Below, in pieces: positions 15,329-52,077 of a stretch of 64,000 nt of DNA. The DNA is from Segatella copri DSM 18205 (GTDB taxonomy: Bacteria > Bacteroidota > Bacteroidia > Bacteroidales > Bacteroidaceae). Within the stretch, counting starts at the first letter, position 1; each line of letters opens with the position of its first letter. A program made the position numbers and the translations under genes. The stretch is taken from the NCBI RefSeq assembly GCF_025151535.1, contig NZ_CP102288.1:2489501-2553500 (forward strand). The letters run 5' to 3'. The notes under the pieces were generated by a model, which saw nothing but the letters and a program-made list of their open reading frames with translations, was not told the origin of the DNA and made no database searches.

Positions 15329-17222
15329 TAATCTGCATGTCATCCCTGTTAGACAGGATGACGAAGACTGAGCCATAAGCTGGCAAGTTCAAATTCACTA
15401 TCTGGCGGATTCTGGAAGTACCGGTACGGAAGGTTGCCGTAATCTGGCGCTCCTTATTCTCCTGATTAATCAGGAAATAGATATCCTTCCTGCCCGTTGC
15501 CTCCAGAACCAGACGGTGGGCATAATCCATATTCTCAGGCAGTATGACATCTGGATCGATGCCATACTGCGAGAAGTTCTTCGCCTGATAAGGCTTGTCG
15601 ATGATGACGATGCCTTCCTCACGCAATTCCTCCAGTTTCGCTTTTATCTCAGCAGAGAGAGAGCTCTCCGGCTGCGAAACCACGAGAATGCGATAATCCT
15701 GATTTCCAGGCAGTTTACCTTTCGGACTGTATTCGAAATTCCATTTCAGCAAGGCATCCTTGTTAATCAAATCGTATTTGTAACCACGAGGGGCACGATA
15801 GCTGTTCTTCTGTTCGGGGTTTTCCGAAGGATGGAACACAGCGATATCAACCACCGATCTGCCCTGCTGCAGATAATGCTGACACATGGTGATGTAATCC
15901 ATGAAACCTCGATCCTCTGGATGCCGGACAATATCATGCTGGAAAATGAGCCTGTTGATACCAAGCGCCAGGTGGCTGTCTGTCAAAGGTTTGAGCAAGG
16001 CGGGCGTTCCGTTCTGTGCGCCATAGTTTCCTGTACAAGCCACAGCCTGGACCGGATTTTCATTATAGATATGGGCTCTGCTTACGGCACGGAACATATC
16101 GTCGGGATGATCGGTACGCGGGATAGGCTCACAAGAAACCTCAACATACTGTTCTTCTGCCAGACGGGTGAAGGTCTGGAAGAACTTCTCCTTTACCAGT
16201 TCCTCGATGGTGAGACGGATATCATTCTGTACCTGTTCGTATCGGGAAGCCGACTCCAGCGGAACACCTGCCATGATAGGAAGATAAGGGATGAGATCAT
16301 AGCCGCGGCGCACCTTGAATTCTTCGGCAAACTGACAGCCCCAGTTCTGGCTACCCCACTCTCTCGGGTCGATATACAGATACGACACCACATCGCCATG
16401 CGGACGGTTCAGTAACGGCGCATACCAGGAACCGAATAGTTTCTTTACGGCTGCCGGTGAGAACCTGTCCACCTCAAGTCCTATACCTTTCCCATCCGTT
16501 GCATGAGTCTGTCCCGTTGAGGTATGTCCCATCCGCAACAGGCACCAGGAGCCCTTAGGCAACTTATTCTGCAAGATACCATTCACCATGACACCCATCA
16601 CCATTCCCCCTTCCATCTTCAAGGGGAGCACATCAGTCATCGGCACCGCCTCGCTCCGGGCAGCCGAATCGGTTGCGTTGCGCCAGGCAGGACCCGTTTT
16701 CCCTTTAAACCGGATAGCAAAAGCTGCAATATCCTGATAATATCCACCTTCGCTTCCGGCAGACTGCATCTTTCCGTCCTTATAACTCTCGGGCTGCCAC
16801 ATCTGCAAGCCTTCAATCTTCTTTCCGCCCTTCACGATGGTATCGGTCCAGACAACCTTCTGCATCGATTCAGCAGGGAGGACAAGCGGATTGCCAGGCA
16901 AGACATGGATGCCCATATCAAAATCGAGAGAGTCGGCTAGCTGGAAGGAATAATCCATCATCTTCCAGAACTCAGGCGACAGCTGTGCCACCCCGTCCTG
17001 AAATTCCAGACGCTCGCCGGCTTCACGTACCGGCATCAGCCAGATACCGCCCATACCTACATTCTTCATACCCGTCAGATCGGCATGAATACCCGGTCTG
17101 GAAACAGAGCCATACTTCCAGTTCCAGAAGGTCCAAGGCTTAGCCTCGTCATTATATGCCATTGCCGACACAACCAGAAGCGCCAGCAAAGCTATCACCA
17201 TATATCTTTTCTTACTATTCAT
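15300..17222 (-). CDS. GH106-like secreted glycosidase, short form
   Basis: Signal peptide [22 protein letters not shown]. It then has the GH106 (alpha-L-rhamnosidase) N-terminal pattern: [27 protein letters not shown] and [19 protein letters not shown]. The frame is open 31 codons further up, but the signal peptide and the promoter at 17246-17277 fix the ATG at 17222. At 640 residues it is clearly shorter than usual GH106 enzymes (about 900-1100), with the C-terminal sandwich domains reduced. Substrate and activity are uncertain. Confidence 0.75.
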
Positions 17223-17245
17223 GAAAGTTTTAATCTTATTCGGTG

Positions 17246-17277
17246 CGAAGGTACGAAGAAAAATCAATATAAACAAA
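17246..17277 (-). promoter_or_regulatory. Promoter of the GH106-like gene
   Basis: On the - strand: TTTG at 17277-17274, 20 bp, then TACCTTCG at 17253-17246, 24 bases before the chosen ATG. Confidence 0.55.
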
Positions 17278-17315
17278 TAAAAAAGCCACAATTGCGGAAA
17301 AAAAGCGTTAAACAT

Positions 17316-17347
17316 TTTGGCTGTTTTGCCATAATGTTGTACTTTTG
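17316..17347 (+). promoter_or_regulatory. recG promoter
   Basis: TTTG at 17316-17319, 20 bp, TACTTTTG at 17340-17347. It lies only 7 bp before the ATG at 17355, so the mRNA has almost no leader. Confidence 0.7.
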
Positions 17348-17354
17348 CATCATT

Positions 17355-19451
17355 ATGAATAGTATTTTAGACCAAGACATCATGTTCCTGCCAGGGGTAG
17401 GACCCAAGAAGAAAGAGATACTGAGCAAGGAGCTCGGCATCAACTCTTATAGTGACCTGCTGGAATACTATCCATATAAATATGTAGACCGCTCCAAGGT
17501 TTTCCACATCAGCGAACTCAATGCCGACATGCCCTTTGTACAACTCAAAGGCAAGATACTCAGCTACGATGAGATAGATACCGGCAAGCGCAACAAACTG
17601 CTGGTAGCCCATTTCTCAGACGGCTACGGTGTGGCTGATCTCATCTGGTATCGCGGTGCCCAATACATCATGAAGACCTATAAGGTGGGAACCGAATATC
17701 TCGTTTTTGGAAAGCCAACCGTCTTCAACGGCAGATTCCAGTTTACCCATCCCGATATGGACGATGCCACCAATCTCCAGATTTCAGAGATGGGCATGCA
17801 GCCCTACTACTCGCTTACCGAGAACCTTAGGAAGCGCGGCTACACCTCACGTTCCATAGAGAAGATGACCAAGCAGCTGGTCACCATCCTTCCTCCTCTT
17901 CCCGAAACGCTGCCAAACCATATCGTAGACCGTCTGCATCTGGTTTCGCGCGATGCAGCCATCCGCATGATTCATTATCCGCATTCCCATCAGGAGATGC
18001 AGAAAGCACAGGTACGCCTTAAATTTGAGGAACTCTTCTATGTGCAGCTTAATATAATAAGGTATGCCACCGACCAGCGCCGCAAGTTCAGGGGATATGT
18101 CTTCAACCGCATCGCCGATATCTTCAACGGGTTCTATGCCCATCATCTGCCTTTTGAACTGACAGGAGCACAGAAACGGGTGATGCATGAAATCAGAGCC
18201 GATATGTGCAGCGGCAGACAGATGAACCGTCTTCTGCAGGGTGATGTGGGTTCGGGCAAGACGCTCGTGGCTCTCATGACCATGCTCATTGCGCTGGATA
18301 ACGGTTATCAGGCATGTATGATGGCACCTACCGAAATTCTTGCCGAGCAGCATCTGCAAACCATCTGCGACTTCCTGCAGGGAATGGATATCCGGGTGGA
18401 ACTGCTCACAGGCATCGTAAAGGGAAAGAAGAGAGAAAAGATTCTTGCCGACCTGGCTACGGGCGACATCCAGATTCTGGTAGGCACCCATGCCATCCTC
18501 GAAGACCCTGTGGTTTTCAGAAGATTAGGCGTAGCCGTCATCGATGAGCAGCATCGCTTCGGTGTAGCACAGAGAGCCAAGCTGTGGAACAAGAGCGAGA
18601 ATCCGCCTCATATCCTCGTGATGACCGCCACTCCTATCCCCCGCACCCTCGCCATGACCATTTATGGTGACCTGGACGTGAGCGTGATTGATGAACTGCC
18701 ACCGGGCAGAAAACCGATACAGACGCTACATAAGTTTGATACCCAACTCACCAGTCTCTATCAGAGCATCCGCCGCCAGATTAATCTCGGCAGACAGGTA
18801 TATATCGTCTTTCCGCTGATCAAGGAAAGCGAGAAGAGCGACCTGAAGAACCTGGAAGAAGGTTACGAAACGCTGAAACAGGCATTCCCGGAATTCAAAT
18901 TGAGTAAGATACACGGAAAGATGAAATCTACCGAGAAGGAGGTAGAGATGGAGCAGTTTGTGAAGGGCGAAACACAGATTCTCGTTGCCACCACCGTGAT
19001 AGAAGTTGGTGTTAATGTGCCCAATGCTTCTGTGATGGTCATCCTGGACGCACAGCGCTTCGGTCTCTCCCAGTTGCACCAGCTGAGAGGCCGTGTAGGA
19101 AGAGGCTGCGACCAGAGCTACTGCATTCTGGTAACCAACTATAAGCTTTCAGAAGAAACCCGCAAACGTATTGATATCATGTGCGATACGAACGACGGTT
19201 TCCGTATCGCCGAGGCCGACTTGAAACTCCGTGGTCCCGGCGACCTGGAGGGAACGCAGCAGAGCGGCATGGCTTTCGACCTGAAGATAGCGAATATTGC
19301 CAGAGACGGTCAGCTGGTACAACTGGCGCGCACAGAAGCACAGGAAATCATCGACAACGATCCCGAATGCAATGCTCCTCACAACGCCCTACTCTGGAAC
19401 CGCCTCAGGGATTTGAAGAAAACCCATATCAACTGGGCAGCCATCAGCTAA
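17355..19451 (+). CDS. recG: ATP-dependent DNA helicase RecG
   Basis: Branch-migration helicase that remodels stalled forks and Holliday junctions. At 698 residues from the ATG at 17355 it has the usual length; the longer open frame upstream precedes the promoter and is not coding. An N-terminal wedge (OB) domain, about 60-170, precedes the helicase core: Walker A GDVGSGKT at about 296-303, DEQH box at about 396-399, TATPIPRT, and the C-terminal QLRGRVGRG motif VI. Confidence 0.97.
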   Translation: MNSILDQDIMFLPGVGPKKKEILSKELGINSYSDLLEYYPYKYVDRSKVFHISELNADMPFVQLKGKILSYDEIDTGKRNKLLVAHFSDGYGVADLIWYRGAQYIMKTYKVGTEYLVFGKPTVFNGRFQFTHPDMDDATNLQISEMGMQPYYSLTENLRKRGYTSRSIEKMTKQLVTILPPLPETLPNHIVDRLHLVSRDAAIRMIHYPHSHQEMQKAQVRLKFEELFYVQLNIIRYATDQRRKFRGYVFNRIADIFNGFYAHHLPFELTGAQKRVMHEIRADMCSGRQMNRLLQGDVGSGKTLVALMTMLIALDNGYQACMMAPTEILAEQHLQTICDFLQGMDIRVELLTGIVKGKKREKILADLATGDIQILVGTHAILEDPVVFRRLGVAVIDEQHRFGVAQRAKLWNKSENPPHILVMTATPIPRTLAMTIYGDLDVSVIDELPPGRKPIQTLHKFDTQLTSLYQSIRRQINLGRQVYIVFPLIKESEKSDLKNLEEGYETLKQAFPEFKLSKIHGKMKSTEKEVEMEQFVKGETQILVATTVIEVGVNVPNASVMVILDAQRFGLSQLHQLRGRVGRGCDQSYCILVTNYKLSEETRKRIDIMCDTNDGFRIAEADLKLRGPGDLEGTQQSGMAFDLKIANIARDGQLVQLARTEAQEIIDNDPECNAPHNALLWNRLRDLKKTHINWAAIS

Positions 19452-46690: not shown

Positions 46691-46698
46691 TACCTTTG
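46691..46698 (+). promoter_or_regulatory. -7 element of the sigma-54 activator gene
   Basis: TACCTTTG, 50 bases before the ATG. No clear TTTG box upstream. Confidence 0.5.
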
Positions 46699-46747: not shown

Positions 46748-48118
46748 ATGAAGAGGATATTGATTGTAGAAGACGATTTGGCATTCGGAACAATGATACA
46801 GACTTGGCTCAAAAAGAAAGGATTCGATGTAGAAAGGGTAACATCCGTAGGCGCTGCCATCAAAGCGATGGGAGCCGGCGATGCATTCCATCTGGTTCTT
46901 TCCGACCTGCGCCTGCCCGACCATGACGGACTGGTATTGCTCCAGCATATCAGAAAGTCCGATGCCCACCTGCCTTTTATCGTAATGACTAGCTATGCAG
47001 AGGTTCAGAATGCTGTATGTGCCATGAAATCGGGTGCTACCGATTACGTGGCTAAGCCCTTCCATCCCGAAATCCTCTTAGAGAAAATCCGTGAGGCTAT
47101 CCAGTCGGCTGCTTCTGCGGTTTCAGCCCCTCAGCCTGCGGAATCTGTCGCCATGCAGGATGCCCCCCAAGAAGAGCAGCAGGGCGCGGAGGTGCCTAGA
47201 TATATAAAAGGTGAAAGCGAGGCTTCCAAGCAGCTCTACGAATTCGTTTCGCTCGTTGCCCCTACCCCGATGTCAGTGCTCATTCTCGGAGCCAGCGGCA
47301 CCGGAAAGGAATATGTGGCGCGCAGCATCCACGAACAGAGTCTGCGCAAGGACAAGCCTTTCTATGCCATCGACTGCGGCGCCATCCCTAAGGAGGTGGC
47401 GGCATCTGAATTCTTCGGATATAAGAAGGGTGCCTTTACCGGAGCCGAACAGGATAAGAAGGGTACCTTCGAGATAGCTAACGGCGGAACGGTTTTCCTC
47501 GATGAGATGGGAAACCTCAACTACGAAGTACAGGTGCAGCTCCTCAGAGCCTTGCAGGAGAGAAAAATACGTCCGCTGGGCAGCACGCAGGAGATTGATG
47601 TGGATATCCGACTCATCTGTGCCACCAACGAGAATCTGGCGCAGGCGGTAGCCGAAGGCAAGTTCAGAGAGGACCTCTATCACCGCATCAACGAGTTTAC
47701 CATCTACATGCCTGCCCTCAAGGACAGAGGTGCCGACATCTTCCTCTTTGCCAACCTCTTTATCAAGCACGCCAACCAGGAACTGGGCAAGAATGTGCTC
47801 GGACTGGATGCCAAAGCCTCCGAAATCATTGCCTCATACGACTGGCCGGGCAACCTGCGCGAACTGAACAATGTGATGAAGCGCGCCACCCTGCTCACCC
47901 GTGGCAAGTATATCGGTGCCCAGGAACTGGAGAAGACGATGGCACAGACCTCCCCAGCCCGACCAATCAATATGCAGCTGCACAGCGAACAGTCGGAACA
48001 GGAAAGCATCGCCGCTGCCCTGAGAGCCACCCACGGCAACAAGAGCAAGGCTGCCCAACTGCTTGCCATCGACCGCAAGACTCTCTACAACAAAATGAAG
48101 AAATACGGCATGGAGTAA
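46748..48118 (+). CDS. Sigma-54-dependent response regulator (NtrC family)
   Basis: Activates sigma-54 promoters when phosphorylated. Receiver domain at 1-120 with phospho-Asp53 (VLSDLRLPDHDGL). The AAA+ domain has Walker A GASGTGKE at about 180-187, and KKGAFTGAEQ, the GAFTGA loop that contacts sigma-54, at about 226-235. A Fis-type HTH lies at about 415-455 (AAALRATHGNKSKAAQLLAI). At 456 residues it is complete. A terminator follows, then a sigma-54-like promoter and the small secreted gene. Confidence 0.95.
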   Translation: MKRILIVEDDLAFGTMIQTWLKKKGFDVERVTSVGAAIKAMGAGDAFHLVLSDLRLPDHDGLVLLQHIRKSDAHLPFIVMTSYAEVQNAVCAMKSGATDYVAKPFHPEILLEKIREAIQSAASAVSAPQPAESVAMQDAPQEEQQGAEVPRYIKGESEASKQLYEFVSLVAPTPMSVLILGASGTGKEYVARSIHEQSLRKDKPFYAIDCGAIPKEVAASEFFGYKKGAFTGAEQDKKGTFEIANGGTVFLDEMGNLNYEVQVQLLRALQERKIRPLGSTQEIDVDIRLICATNENLAQAVAEGKFREDLYHRINEFTIYMPALKDRGADIFLFANLFIKHANQELGKNVLGLDAKASEIIASYDWPGNLRELNNVMKRATLLTRGKYIGAQELEKTMAQTSPARPINMQLHSEQSEQESIAAALRATHGNKSKAAQLLAIDRKTLYNKMKKYGME

Positions 48119-48122
48119 AACA

Positions 48123-48159
48123 TTCCCCAATATATTCCACACTATATTGGGGAATTTTT
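48123..48159 (+). terminator. Terminator of the sigma-54 activator gene
   Basis: TTCCCCAATATA (48123-48134) pairs with TATATTGGGGAA (48143-48154), followed by TTTTT. Confidence 0.9.
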
Positions 48160-48250
48160 CTACACCTTTTCCCCACTTTCCCCACACCCCATTTCTGGCA
48201 CAGAGCACCATCTAATATGATTATCAGACACTTAACCAACTCATCAATTT

Positions 48251-48268
48251 TTGGCACGCCTATTGTGA
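48251..48268 (+). promoter_or_regulatory. Sigma-54-type promoter
   Basis: TTGGCACGCCTATTGTGA fits TTGGCACG-N4-TTGC with one change in the -12 box (GT for GC). The -24 GG is at 48253-48254 and the -12 pair follows after 10 bases. The gene at 48351 is 83 bp downstream, and an NtrC-type activator is next door. Confidence 0.75.
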
Positions 48269-48350
48269 TATTATTTAGCGAACTCGCAAATGAGTTTCAG
48301 CAAGAGAATTAATAAACAAATAATATTCACAATTAAAAAACAAAAGAATT

Positions 48351-48536
48351 ATGAAAAAGTTAGTATTTGCAGTTATTGCAGCAGTAGCAATGGTATCAGT
48401 TAGCAATGTATTTGCAGGTAACAGAATGGTAAGCGTTGCAGGTTCAGAACCAGTAGACACAGTAGCTCCAGCCGACACAACAGCAACACCTGTTGAGGCA
48501 CCAGCAGCAACAGTGGATTCAACCGTAGCAAAGTAA
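48351..48536 (+). CDS. Small secreted protein (61 residues) under a sigma-54-like promoter
   Basis: A short protein with a clear signal peptide (MKKLVFAVIAAVAMVSVSNVFA, cleavage after Ala22). The mature part of about 39 residues is low in complexity and acidic, rich in Ala, Pro, Thr and Val (PVDTVAPADTTATPVEA), with no Cys. It probably sits in the periplasm or is exported. No homologue is known to me. The gene lies between an NtrC-type activator and a hybrid kinase and has its own promoter and hairpin, so it is a probable main output of that system. Confidence 0.75.
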   Translation: MKKLVFAVIAAVAMVSVSNVFAGNRMVSVAGSEPVDTVAPADTTATPVEAPAATVDSTVAK

Positions 48537-48577
48537 ATCCACCTTCAGAAAATAGTAATTACGCGTCGCTTTCAATG

Positions 48578-48624
48578 AAACAGGAGATAGATGACCAGAT
48601 TTTGGCATTTATCTCCTGTTTTCG
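48578..48624 (+). terminator. Hairpin after the small secreted protein gene
   Basis: AAACAGGAGATA (48578-48589) pairs with TATCTCCTGTTT (48610-48621). Loop of 20 nt; a short T-run only. Confidence 0.65.
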
Positions 48625-48655
48625 TTGGTTTATATCGCATTTTTGATTAACTTTG
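48625..48655 (+). promoter_or_regulatory. Promoter of the hybrid histidine kinase gene
   Basis: TTGG at 48625-48628, 19 bp, TAACTTTG at 48648-48655. Confidence 0.65.
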
Positions 48656-48698
48656 CACGCAAATAGCAAAAAGACTCAAAACATTAAAAGATAAGAAG

Positions 48699-51014
48699 AT
48701 GCAGCAAACAAACGTTCCTTTCAAGGTAGCCCTGGGTTACATCATCGTTGCCATCGTACTGATTCTGGCGATAGGGCTGGTATATCGCAACACCACAACC
48801 GTGCTTGCTATCAACCAGGCAACCCGCGACTATATCGAAAAGCGACAGGCAGCCGACAGCACCATGTCCAACCTGCTCAAGGAGGAACAGACCAATCTGC
48901 AGCAGCTTACCCGCGCCATGCAGGGCAAGTCATCCCACAACTATCTGCACGAGAAGATGAACAGCCTCAACAGTGGCGAAGATTCCGTTGTCGTGCATTC
49001 CAAGGCACCCAAGACTCATGTGGCAAAGAACACCACCGTAGAGGTGATGAAAACCCGCAAGGGCTTCTTCCGCCGCCTTGCCGATGCCTTCAAGAAGGAA
49101 CATGCCGAAACGCTCAGCATCAGACGCGACAGTAACCAGGCTGTCACCGATACCCTCTCTACCCCGGTCAACTTAGCCGGAAACGTAGCCAATATTCTGG
49201 AACAGATTGACCGCAAGGAGAAGCAGTCTACACGCGATAACCACGAAGCCATCAACCGCGAGGTGAGAGACCTGCAGATAACCAATGCCCGCCTCGCCCT
49301 GCGCTCCTCCCAGCAGCTCAACGATATCCACCAGCGCGAACGTCAGGCGATGCAGCAGGCCATCAACCAGGCGATGCAGGCGCGCCAGAATCTGCTCTGG
49401 CAGATAGGTCTGCTTGCCATCGTAGCCATCACAGCCGCCATCATCCTCGTCTATTACATCTACCGCGATACGCAGAAGGAACGCATCTACCGCGAGAATC
49501 TCGAAGAGGCTAACGAGGAAATCAGGCGCATCATGAACCAGCGCGAGCGCCTGCTCCTCACCATCACCCACGACATCAAGGCTCCGGCTGCCAGCATCTC
49601 GGGCTTCATCGACCTGATGAAGGATTATGTCGACAACCCGCAGGGCATCTCCTGCCTCAACAGCATCAAGGGTTCTGCCACCCATCTCTCCCGGCTCGTT
49701 GCCGCCCTGCTCGATTATCACCAGTTGGAAAACGGACTGATGAAGCTGAACCCTGTAGATTTCTCGCCTGCCGACATGTTCCGCCAGTGTGCCGGAGAGA
49801 TGCAGATCCTGAGCCAGGAGAAGGGATTGGAACTGCATCTGGAGCTCGATGGCATCAGCAGTCCGAAGACCTACTACCGTGCCGATGCCTTCCGTATCCG
49901 TCAGATACTCAACAACCTGATAAGCAATGCCATCAAGTATACCGATAAGGGCAGCGTCACCATCCAGGCAGCCATCAGTCCCCAGCACCTCCTCACCTTC
50001 TCGGTAAGGGATACCGGCAAGGGCATGACCACCGAAGAGCGCCAGAAGGTATTCCAGGCGTTCACCCGCCTGAAGAGTGCTCAGGGCATCGAGGGCACCG
50101 GTCTCGGGCTGAACATCACCCAGGAACTGGTCAATCTGCTTCAGGGCACCCTGCGTCTGGAATCCGTCAAGGACAAGGGCAGCACCTTCACCGTCACCAT
50201 TCCGCTTGCCTTAGGTACCGCTCCTGCAGCAGAAGAGGCAGAAGAGCAGAAGCCCCTCGCCCCAGCCAAGCCCCATTTCGAAAACCACAAGATACTGCTG
50301 CTCGATGACGACCCGTTGCAGCTCCGCCTGCTTCAGGAGATGCTGAAGAAGCTGGTAGGCGACAGTTGGCAAGTCTTTGCCTGTCTGCATGTAGCCGAGG
50401 CGCTCACCGTGCTCCACAACGAGCATCCTGCGCTGATGATGATGGATATCGAAATGCCCGAGATGAACGGCATCAGGATGATTCAGCACATCAACCACAG
50501 TCACATGCAGGTAGTAGCGATGACTGCCCACGATGCCAGCATCATCAGAGAGTTGAAAGAAGCCGGTTTCGACGATTGCCTCTTCAAGCCGTTCAGCACA
50601 GAGAAGCTGAAAGAAATCCTCGGATTGGAGGATGCAGCATCAGAAACAGAGGATATGGCAGAGAAAACATCATCAGAAGCAGAGGATATTACAGAGGAAT
50701 CCAATAAGAAATCCCGCTTTGCACCCCTCCTAACCTTTGCAGAAGGCGATCCGGAGGCAGAAGCTAAGATACTCAGCACCGTCAAGCAGGAGTTGTCATC
50801 CCATCTCCAGAACCTCCAGCAGGCAACAGAAGGCGAGTTATCAATAGAAGCCATCGGCAAGACAGCCCACAAGCTCCTCCCTATCGCCACGATGATAGAG
50901 ATGGAGACCCACCAGCACATCGCCGCCCTCGCTCCCGAGCATATCAGCGATCTGTCAGAATCTCAGATAAGAGCCTACACCCAGGCCATTATCGCCGACC
51001 TGAAGGGCTTTTAA
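48699..51014 (+). CDS. Hybrid histidine kinase with receiver and Hpt domains
   Basis: A membrane sensor kinase of 771 residues. Membrane segments at about 10-28 and 234-252 enclose a helical periplasmic sensor region rich in Gln and Glu. The HisKA has THDIKAPAAS with His291, followed by a HATPase_c with NLISNAIKYTDKG, DTGKGM and GTGLGLNI. The receiver has phospho-Asp583 (MMMDIEMPEMNG). The C-terminal Hpt has His724 (GKTAHKLLP). This internal relay can pass phosphate to a separate regulator, most simply the sigma-54 activator 0.6 kb upstream. Confidence 0.94.
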   Translation: MQQTNVPFKVALGYIIVAIVLILAIGLVYRNTTTVLAINQATRDYIEKRQAADSTMSNLLKEEQTNLQQLTRAMQGKSSHNYLHEKMNSLNSGEDSVVVHSKAPKTHVAKNTTVEVMKTRKGFFRRLADAFKKEHAETLSIRRDSNQAVTDTLSTPVNLAGNVANILEQIDRKEKQSTRDNHEAINREVRDLQITNARLALRSSQQLNDIHQRERQAMQQAINQAMQARQNLLWQIGLLAIVAITAAIILVYYIYRDTQKERIYRENLEEANEEIRRIMNQRERLLLTITHDIKAPAASISGFIDLMKDYVDNPQGISCLNSIKGSATHLSRLVAALLDYHQLENGLMKLNPVDFSPADMFRQCAGEMQILSQEKGLELHLELDGISSPKTYYRADAFRIRQILNNLISNAIKYTDKGSVTIQAAISPQHLLTFSVRDTGKGMTTEERQKVFQAFTRLKSAQGIEGTGLGLNITQELVNLLQGTLRLESVKDKGSTFTVTIPLALGTAPAAEEAEEQKPLAPAKPHFENHKILLLDDDPLQLRLLQEMLKKLVGDSWQVFACLHVAEALTVLHNEHPALMMMDIEMPEMNGIRMIQHINHSHMQVVAMTAHDASIIRELKEAGFDDCLFKPFSTEKLKEILGLEDAASETEDMAEKTSSEAEDITEESNKKSRFAPLLTFAEGDPEAEAKILSTVKQELSSHLQNLQQATEGELSIEAIGKTAHKLLPIATMIEMETHQHIAALAPEHISDLSESQIRAYTQAIIADLKGF

Positions 51015-51159: not shown

Positions 51160-52077
51160 TTAGAAAAGACTCAGCTGTTTCGTATCTTCGATAACGTATC
51201 CAGTAAGTGCCTTGGGCTTGTTGTCAAAGAAACAGTATGCCCCTAATGCAGAAATAATATTTATGATGAAATTCGAAACAGACCTGTGACGTGAATGTAC
51301 TATCTGAGCCGTATTTTTCAACAGGTCATTAATCGTTTCAATGATGTATCTTTTGCGTAGCATCATCTTGTCATAGAACGGCATTAGTTTGTTCTTCATG
51401 TTCACTCTCAGTCCTGTAACCAACTGGATGCCTTCCTCAAAAAGCGAATCGAAGAGTTTTTGCGAGATATAGCCTTTATCTGCAAACAGCTTGCCATACA
51501 GACGTTTAGCCAATACATCGAATACCGCTGGATCTTTGTCGCTAACGTTTGCACCAGTGAGAACAAAAGCAATTATCTCACCTCTATCATTACAAGCCAG
51601 ATGTAGCTTGAACCCATGACACCATCCCATTGTTCCCTTTCCGTCTGTGGCAATGCCTTTGAACACTTTGTTGGCATAACGCCTGAGATTGTGGCATATT
51701 GGTATCATGGTTGAATCAACAAAGGTTATACCTGTACATCTGCCAAAAGCACGGAGATTCAGGAAGAACATGAGAGGGAAGAATACGCGACTTTCAAGTT
51801 CTACAAAACGGTTATAAGACACTGCATTTGGAAAATATGACTTCAATGTTCCTCTAATAAAGAATAGGTAATAATGCTTGAAGTTTCGGAATGAGCCGAA
51901 ATGGAAATACAGCAAAATCGTCATGATTTCACTATCAGATAAAGAGGCTTTACGTCGTCTGCGCTTTACTCCATCTTCACTCAAAAGCAATTTTCCTGCA
52001 TTTTCAGCATCAAAAACTTTGTAAAATTCATCAATAATACAAAATAATTCTGTAACTTTGTCCTTGGTAATCTCCAT
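51160..52077 (-). CDS. IS982-family transposase
   Basis: A 305-residue DDE transposase. An N-terminal helical region (LSDSEIMTILLYFHFGSFRNF) precedes the catalytic part: FVDSTMIPIC with the first Asp, FKLHLACNDRGEIIAF, FADKGYISQKLFDSL with the second Asp, and KRYIIETIND with the Glu. The length and order match IS982. All three acidic residues are present, so it looks active. Confidence 0.93.
   Translation of the reverse strand: MEITKDKVTELFCIIDEFYKVFDAENAGKLLLSEDGVKRRRRKASLSDSEIMTILLYFHFGSFRNFKHYYLFFIRGTLKSYFPNAVSYNRFVELESRVFFPLMFFLNLRAFGRCTGITFVDSTMIPICHNLRRYANKVFKGIATDGKGTMGWCHGFKLHLACNDRGEIIAFVLTGANVSDKDPAVFDVLAKRLYGKLFADKGYISQKLFDSLFEEGIQLVTGLRVNMKNKLMPFYDKMMLRKRYIIETINDLLKNTAQIVHSRHRSVSNFIINIISALGAYCFFDNKPKALTGYVIEDTKQLSLF

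Follow-up and report, generated by a model that had tools for sequence, protein, structure and literature searches.

The closest described system to the locus examined here is ZraSR-ZraP of Escherichia coli and Salmonella, in which a kinase and a sigma-54 response regulator control a small exported protein. There, the sigma-54 regulator ZraR acts on zraP and has few targets, and a role in envelope stress is proposed (PMC7657598). Here, we describe a locus in Segatella copri DSM 18205 that lies within a 64,000-nucleotide stretch (positions 2,489,501 to 2,553,500 of contig NZ_CP102288.1, assembly GCF_025151535.1), which we call the window and whose numbering is used throughout. At 46748-51014, three genes follow one another on the + strand: an NtrC-type activator, a 61-amino acid (aa) open reading frame (ORF), and a hybrid sensor histidine kinase. 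On balance, we judge it probable that the three make up a sigma-54 two-component circuit of their own, with the wiring of ZraSR-ZraP and, as its output, a short O-glycan acceptor that protects the envelope.

The layout is that of ZraPSR, with a sigma-54 regulator and a kinase beside the gene of a small, apparently exported protein that carries a sigma-54 promoter, and, as there, very few targets are apparent. The kinase here is a hybrid with a receiver and an Hpt-like domain, whereas ZraS is not known to be a hybrid kinase. The output also differs, in that it has no predicted fold, is rich in O-glycosylation motifs, and matches no Pfam or NCBIfam family at 0.001, ZraP- and CpxP-like families included. 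Because the output matches no family, we do not class the circuit as a ZraPSR member. No published description of it was found in the open-licence literature, judged by titles and the starts of abstracts. If our reading is correct, a common gut lineage contains a complete and testable sigma-54 switch (kinase, activator, enhancer, promoter, and output) linked to the general O-glycosylation system. A 2025 review describes the function of that system as largely unknown (PMC12871550).

In the mechanism we propose, the membrane hybrid kinase would respond to some state of the envelope, and phosphate would be relayed from its receiver through the Hpt-like domain to the activator. The phosphorylated activator would bind a dyad, TGKRGAA-N3-TTCYMCA, together with the half-sites that follow, and would loop onto RNA polymerase-sigma-54 at the -24/-12 site, perhaps aided by a protein of the IHF/HU type (integration host factor). 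As far as strong matches show, this would switch on one gene in the home genome. Its product would be exported without a predicted fold and would likely accept the general O-glycan of Bacteroidota. Present in bulk and coated with glycan in the periplasm or outer envelope, it would most likely shield the envelope under the sensed stress, and it could also feed back on the kinase.

Domains of the activator and kinase

The activator (46748-48118, +, 456 aa) contains a receiver (PF00072), a sigma-54 AAA+ domain (PF00158) with its lid, and a Fis-type helix-turn-helix (PF02954), all above the Pfam cut-offs. Its GAFTGA loop (residue 228), Walker A motif (181), and Walker B motif (246) are intact, and the closest solved structure is an NtrC-family regulator (4l4u, E 1.7e-90). 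This combination of receiver, AAA+ domain with GAFTGA and Walker motifs, and Fis-type helix-turn-helix is that of NtrC-family enhancer-binding proteins, in agreement with the initial annotation of this DNA, which had recognised an NtrC-type activator with an intact GAFTGA loop. Named close relatives of the protein come from Segatella copri, Leyella stercorea, Xylanibacter rarus, and Prevotella sp.

In the kinase (48699-51014, +, 771 aa), the HisKA, HATPase, and receiver domains all score above the Pfam cut-off, and hydrophobic peaks lie near residues 10 and 236. The periplasmic part contains a conserved basic stretch, KTRKGFFRRLADAF, and F124, R126, D129, and A130 are invariant among 10 sequences. 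A structural model of residues 1-280 was mainly helical and poor (mean predicted local distance difference test [pLDDT] 60.9, predicted template modeling score [pTM] 0.26). The kinases of the window and of locus L039 lack ~50 periplasmic residues (about residue 54) that are present in the other aligned relatives.

Promoter and enhancer of the small gene

Upstream of the small gene, a -24/-12 element, TTGGCACGCCTATTGT, occupies 48251-48266 (+), with GG and G at the fixed spacing of sigma-54 promoters and a -12 box reading TTGT rather than TTGC. No TAnnTTTG box is present in the 330 base pairs (bp) of upstream DNA read. To judge its conservation, we sampled the window together with homology-search copies that had readable upstream DNA, sorted into group A, with a signal-peptidase-I-like leader (MKK..VSVSNVFA, 21 loci), and group B, look-alike lipoprotein genes with a lipobox (SCGNKT, 20 loci). 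One incomplete copy (L045) is counted among the 21 group A promoters and excluded from the 20 complete proteins considered below. A sigma-54 site scoring at least 9 of 11 precedes every group A gene (10 or 11 at 20 loci, 9 at one), whereas a score this high arose in 59 of 2100 shuffled group A upstreams. By contrast, no such site precedes any of the 20 group B genes, and the 19 inspected for it have a TAnnTTTG box at -59 to -67. These 20 controls exclude two lipoproteins for their length (L230, 246 aa, and L005, 229 aa), the first of which lacks both sigma-54 site and TAnnTTTG box upstream. The gene for sigma-54 itself, rpoN, is present once in the home genome and was found in 55 of the 60 genomes searched. 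Sigma-54 control of this promoter is thus well supported by comparative sequence evidence. The initial annotation had made its claim of a small secreted protein with a sigma-54 promoter depend on conservation in relatives, and the site is indeed kept at all 21 loci.

The promoter is accompanied by an enhancer-like dyad, TGGGGAA-TTT-TTCTACA (48148-48164), presumed to be the site of the activator. Its consensus, TGKRGAA-N3-TTCYMCA, is found with zero or one mismatch upstream of all 21 group A promoters, in 0/20 group B upstreams, and in 0/2100 shuffled group A upstreams. The dyad stands 86-89 bp from the -24 box at 12 loci and 96-100 bp from it at nine. The two classes differ by about one helical turn, as an activator would require in order to face the polymerase, and all 21 loci thus have an upstream site at a fixed helical phase. 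Two extra half-sites, TTCCCCA, follow the dyad at 48169-48175 and 48178-48184 (+). A suggestive element between enhancer and promoter, TATCAGACACTTA (48222-48234, +), is what we take to be IHF-like; 10 of the 21 loci have one, compared with a mean of 0.41 and a maximum of 3 in shuffled sequence. A lone TGGCAC half-site is also found in this interval (48196-48201), and TGGCA is likewise seen in three of the four copies in genome G042 and at L041 (TGGTA in the fourth G042 copy), in each case without a -12 partner.

The dyad overlaps a 13-pair inverted repeat (48122-48155) that had previously been read as a terminator. This palindrome is also found upstream of small-gene copies that have no activator alongside (three in G042 and one each in G426, G438, and G440), all of which keep both dyad and sigma-54 site, and we therefore set aside the view that the hairpin is chiefly a terminator. 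The dyad is better read as the enhancer on which the activator acts, although the hairpin may still end the activator transcript. Upstream of the activator and the kinase, TAnnTTTG-type boxes (TACCTTTG, 46691-46698, and TAACTTTG, 48648-48655, both +) presumably represent the housekeeping promoter type of Bacteroidota. The earlier view that each gene has its own promoter or terminator stands, with the qualification that the hairpin is not solely a terminator. From the position of the -12 box, a 5′ leader of the small gene is predicted at 48277-48350 (+), with a short hairpin near its start. Hairpin z-scores at four loci (-1.95 in the window, -4.89 at L039, -1.29 at L041, and -3.73 at L043) were too inconsistent for us to regard the leader as a regulatory RNA; the hairpin perhaps stabilises the message.

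A promoter-like site could arise by chance before an ORF that is not a gene. The pattern TTGGCAC-N5-TTG occurs 16 times in the home genome (one contig, 3.3 Mb), and 11 of these occurrences fall within longer called frames, taking start codons as called. Yet site and dyad are kept together at 21/21 loci, which places the small-gene site beyond chance despite the frequency of the pattern, and the protein has 410 homologues at E 0.01 or better. We consider a chance origin extremely improbable. The other five occurrences were judged to lie directly before correctly oriented genes: the small gene, htpG, dnaK, grpE-dnaJ, and a TolC-like gene. For the TolC-like gene, a later start was assumed, since the longest frame called there begins slightly before the site.

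The chaperone genes bear on how sigma-54 is used in this lineage. Sites of 10 or 11 of 11 precede htpG and dnaK at 28 of 30 loci each, with a score of 9 at the other two (the 30 best matches were taken in each case, out of 52 and 55 genomes, respectively). This conservation indicates that sigma-54 elements are in use in the lineage, and chaperone control by sigma-54 in Bacteroidota is reported in a 2025 survey (PMC12316311). With sites before htpG, dnaK, and grpE, the initial annotation's statement that such sites are rare in Bacteroidota is not supported and misleads. The chaperone genes share the -24/-12 element and the genome with the small gene but lack its type of dyad, since the one exact match and the seven one-mismatch places in the genome all lie elsewhere, and so probably answer to a different activator. 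In the home genome, their sites lie at loci L125 (htpG), L130 (dnaK), and L123 (grpE-dnaJ).

The circuit may also control several genes, such as efflux pumps, among which the small gene would be a minor target. When the first version of the dyad pattern was searched over 13 genomes, it occurred at 22 places, 13 of which were followed by a sigma-54 site of at least 9 at 86-100 bp; the best score at the other nine was 8. Twelve of the 13 were small genes, and the last was an AcrB-type efflux operon in Leyella stercorea (G368:C146). There, at locus L265, a perfect dyad (TGTGGAAAAATTCCACA, 2391-2407), a half-site, and GTGGCACGTAATTTGT 86 bp on precede an HlyD-type adaptor and an AcrB-type pump (2555 onward). 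Going by this arrangement, the Leyella stercorea circuit probably also drives the efflux operon, and we have dropped a strict single-target reading for the family as a whole. An efflux pump as co-target points to envelope or antimicrobial stress. The home genome has a single exact copy of the dyad, the one at 48148-48164. Allowing one mismatch gives eight places in total, the same number as a reversed control pattern, and none of the seven additional places is followed by a sigma-54 site of 9 or better. Strong matches, which are all that such pattern searches detect, suggest a single target in the home genome, and we regard a minor role for the small gene as possible but rather doubtful. One of the nine lower-scoring places in the search of 13 genomes is an exact dyad 1.2 kb before a small gene in G042 (around position 1645 of L261; G042:C9:128644-128660). 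It has no sigma-54 site within 140 bp and is perhaps a remnant of another copy.

The probable exported protein and its O-glycosylation motif

The small gene (48351-48536, +) encodes 61 residues, of which approximately 1-22 resemble a signal peptide by eye, leaving a mature part of 39. A low-confidence model (pLDDT 58.7) placed a helix over the leader and no fold beyond it. Among the homologue matches listed, four carry an organism name (three Segatella copri and one Prevotella sp.). Across the 20 complete relatives, mature parts range from 30 to 86 residues, and the proteins have little in common apart from their leader and a single motif, D(S/T)(A/I/L/V/M/T). Published work identifies this motif as the site of O-glycosylation in Bacteroidota, as shown for B. 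fragilis and T. forsythia (PMC8550257), and describes a widened form in Prevotella intermedia, where DS(L/I/V) is preferred (PMC10897501). Common motifs in exported proteins are generally almost fully occupied, according to a review (PMC12871550).

The window protein has three such motifs in its 39 residues: D36-T37-V38 (48456-48464), D42-T43-T44 (48474-48482), and D56-S57-T58 (48516-48524), all on the + strand. This amounts to 7.7 per 100 residues; the values for two further exported proteins encoded in the window are 0.59 and 0. Every one of the 20 complete relatives has at least two (range 2-6). In these proteins, 65 of 100 Asp residues lie in the motif, compared with 11 of 104 Glu residues in its Glu counterpart, E(S/T)(A/I/L/V/M/T); 37 of the 65 motifs are DTV or DTT. 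The excess is also seen in 120 homologues among the matches listed, many of them near-identical, with 417 motifs for 480 Asp (shuffle mean 72, maximum 95). The description of the mature protein as a low-complexity Ala/Pro/Thr peptide thus overlooked its conserved feature. From its sequence, the small protein is likely a short O-glycoprotein. It resembles known O-glycosylation substrates of Bacteroidota in being apparently exported and carrying the motif, and differs in that its mature part is mostly motif and linker and that its gene has its own sigma-54 switch. A short protein of this kind would also be a handy natural reporter of O-glycosylation.

The small lipoproteins of the genus (..SCGNKT..DTVAADTVA) are comparable in length and motif density, and the same profile matches both families. 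They differ in having a lipobox rather than a signal-peptidase-I-like site, and a TAnnTTTG box rather than the sigma-54 site and dyad, neither of which was found in their 20 upstreams. Lipoproteins of ~50-66 residues consisting largely of DTVAADTVA-like motifs, with housekeeping-type promoters, were seen at L217-L227, L229, L231-L234, and L280-L282, and the home genome has a copy of this family at L258:967-1203 (-).

Bacteroidota could possess an inducible periplasmic “mini-mucin,” with a sigma-54 system mainly raising a tiny, unfolded, general O-glycan carrier. Such a carrier might form a protective coat on the envelope, in some species together with efflux, or serve as a sink through which glycan supply is sensed and balanced. 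A dedicated, regulated circuit tied in this way to the glycosylation system would provide a handle on the purpose of the glycan. We offer this broader idea tentatively and think it unlikely to hold in full. A different function would be that of a periplasmic regulator of the neighboring kinase, with a tail that matters only for that purpose. CpxP acts in this manner on its own kinase, and ZraP is reportedly a repressor of ZraSR. A kinase relative is in the module or adjoins the small gene at 12 of 21 loci, the periplasmic part of the kinase has its conserved basic stretch, and 19 of the 20 mature small proteins have a net charge of -2 or lower. Yet tail length varies from 30 to 86 residues and charge from -1 to -16 while the motif persists, and this range of charges also weakened our earlier idea that the protein docks on the kinase by charge. 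The additional copies of the small gene, three of them in G042 and one in G426, and its tandem pair in G382 suggest a need for bulk instead. Kinase regulation as the chief function is therefore conceivable but, in our view, improbable.

Processing and release of the protein as a peptide signal or bacteriocin-like factor would fit a product that is small, apparently exported, regulated, and variable in its tail. However, conservation is scant beyond the leader and the motif, there is no family match, and no adjacent transporter, protease, or immunity gene was noticed among the loci examined by eye. We assign this only a slim chance, and a short O-glycan acceptor remains our preferred reading.

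Linkage, distribution, and other sigma-54 activators

An activator relative adjoins the small gene or shares its three-gene module at 15 of the 21 loci. In G438 and G440, a kinase lies beside the small gene and no activator was seen there, and neither activator nor kinase adjoins three of the G042 copies and one G426 copy. Where all three genes are together, they occur as activator-small gene-kinase (window, G042, L041, G043, G266, G146, and G141), as small gene-kinase-activator (L043 and L044), or as kinase-activator-small gene (L045). The initial annotation had proposed conservation of the three-gene order as a check; linkage is conserved, but order is not. Two activators without an adjacent small gene (L040 and L042) have a copy with dyad and promoter elsewhere in their genomes. 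The small gene is also amplified. G042 has four copies and G426 two, and in G382 a tandem pair of ORFs behind one promoter encodes an identical product. This amplification suggests that the product is needed in bulk. One of the four G042 copies lies directly 3′ of a gene that is clpB-like by eye (L263:3302-3628).

Several points weigh against our reading. The Hpt domain claimed for the hybrid kinase scores 12.7 bits in the whole protein and 19.3 bits in the C-terminal piece, below the cut-off of 24.6, though the AHK of this region is retained in all five aligned kinases (H at residue 724 here). The group A loci are related, so that their counts overstate independence. The dyad was derived by eye from 11 of the 21 loci, with the other 10 out of sample, and the pattern was altered at two positions mid-analysis, one made stricter and one looser. 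Enrichment of the glycosylation motif is weak in the shortest proteins (shuffle fractions of 0.175 in G146, 0.085 in G141, and 0.076 in G043). Moreover, DS(L/I/V), which is preferred in P. intermedia, is scarce here (6 of the 65 motifs), so glycan occupancy may be partial. The Leyella circuit is not single-target, and five genomes (G191, G338, G167, G382, and G375) have the activator with no kinase within flanks of ~1.5 kb, some of which are ended by contig ends. Finally, of the 398 genomes in the genus, 13 were found to have clear group A members. That count is a minimum, given the shortness of the protein, and the patchy distribution indicates that the circuit is dispensable.

The genus profile search gave 43 matches in 37 genomes. 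Loci were retrieved for 30 of the matches, and six of the other 13 were read separately; the remaining seven, weak matches in G112, G277, G038, G428, G013, G350, and G126, were left out of the reading. The matches in G008 and G002 (L004 and L005), together with the weak tail of the profile search, were not counted in the family, since they carry a lipobox and lack a sigma-54 site. In other Bacteroidales, activators of 51-52% identity were found in 16 genomes (L046-L061). A search of seven of these 16 for the small protein gave one weak match (E 0.002) and none in the other six, but the same search also missed the L045 copy, so a miss does not prove absence.

The home genome contains three strong matches to the sigma-54 AAA+ domain (216-228 bits); six weak ones (20-38 bits) were judged to be other AAA+ proteins. 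The second activator, 448 aa, is located near 486 kb (L259:5483-6829, -). Its AAA+ domain begins near the N-terminus, seemingly without a receiver, and its neighbors, named by eye, are a lipoprotein gene and a SecG-like gene. This protein may be a candidate for the chaperone promoters. Immediately 3′ of the module in the window is an IS982-family transposase gene (51160-52077, -). The third activator is again paired with a kinase (L260:5988-8717, +, and 16226-17620, -) and lies near permease, adaptor, and TolC-like genes, also named by eye. Its TolC-like gene is preceded by a sigma-54 site, and similar sites are found in four other genomes (L021, L024, L030, and L033), each upstream of a TolC-like gene that adjoins a related activator.

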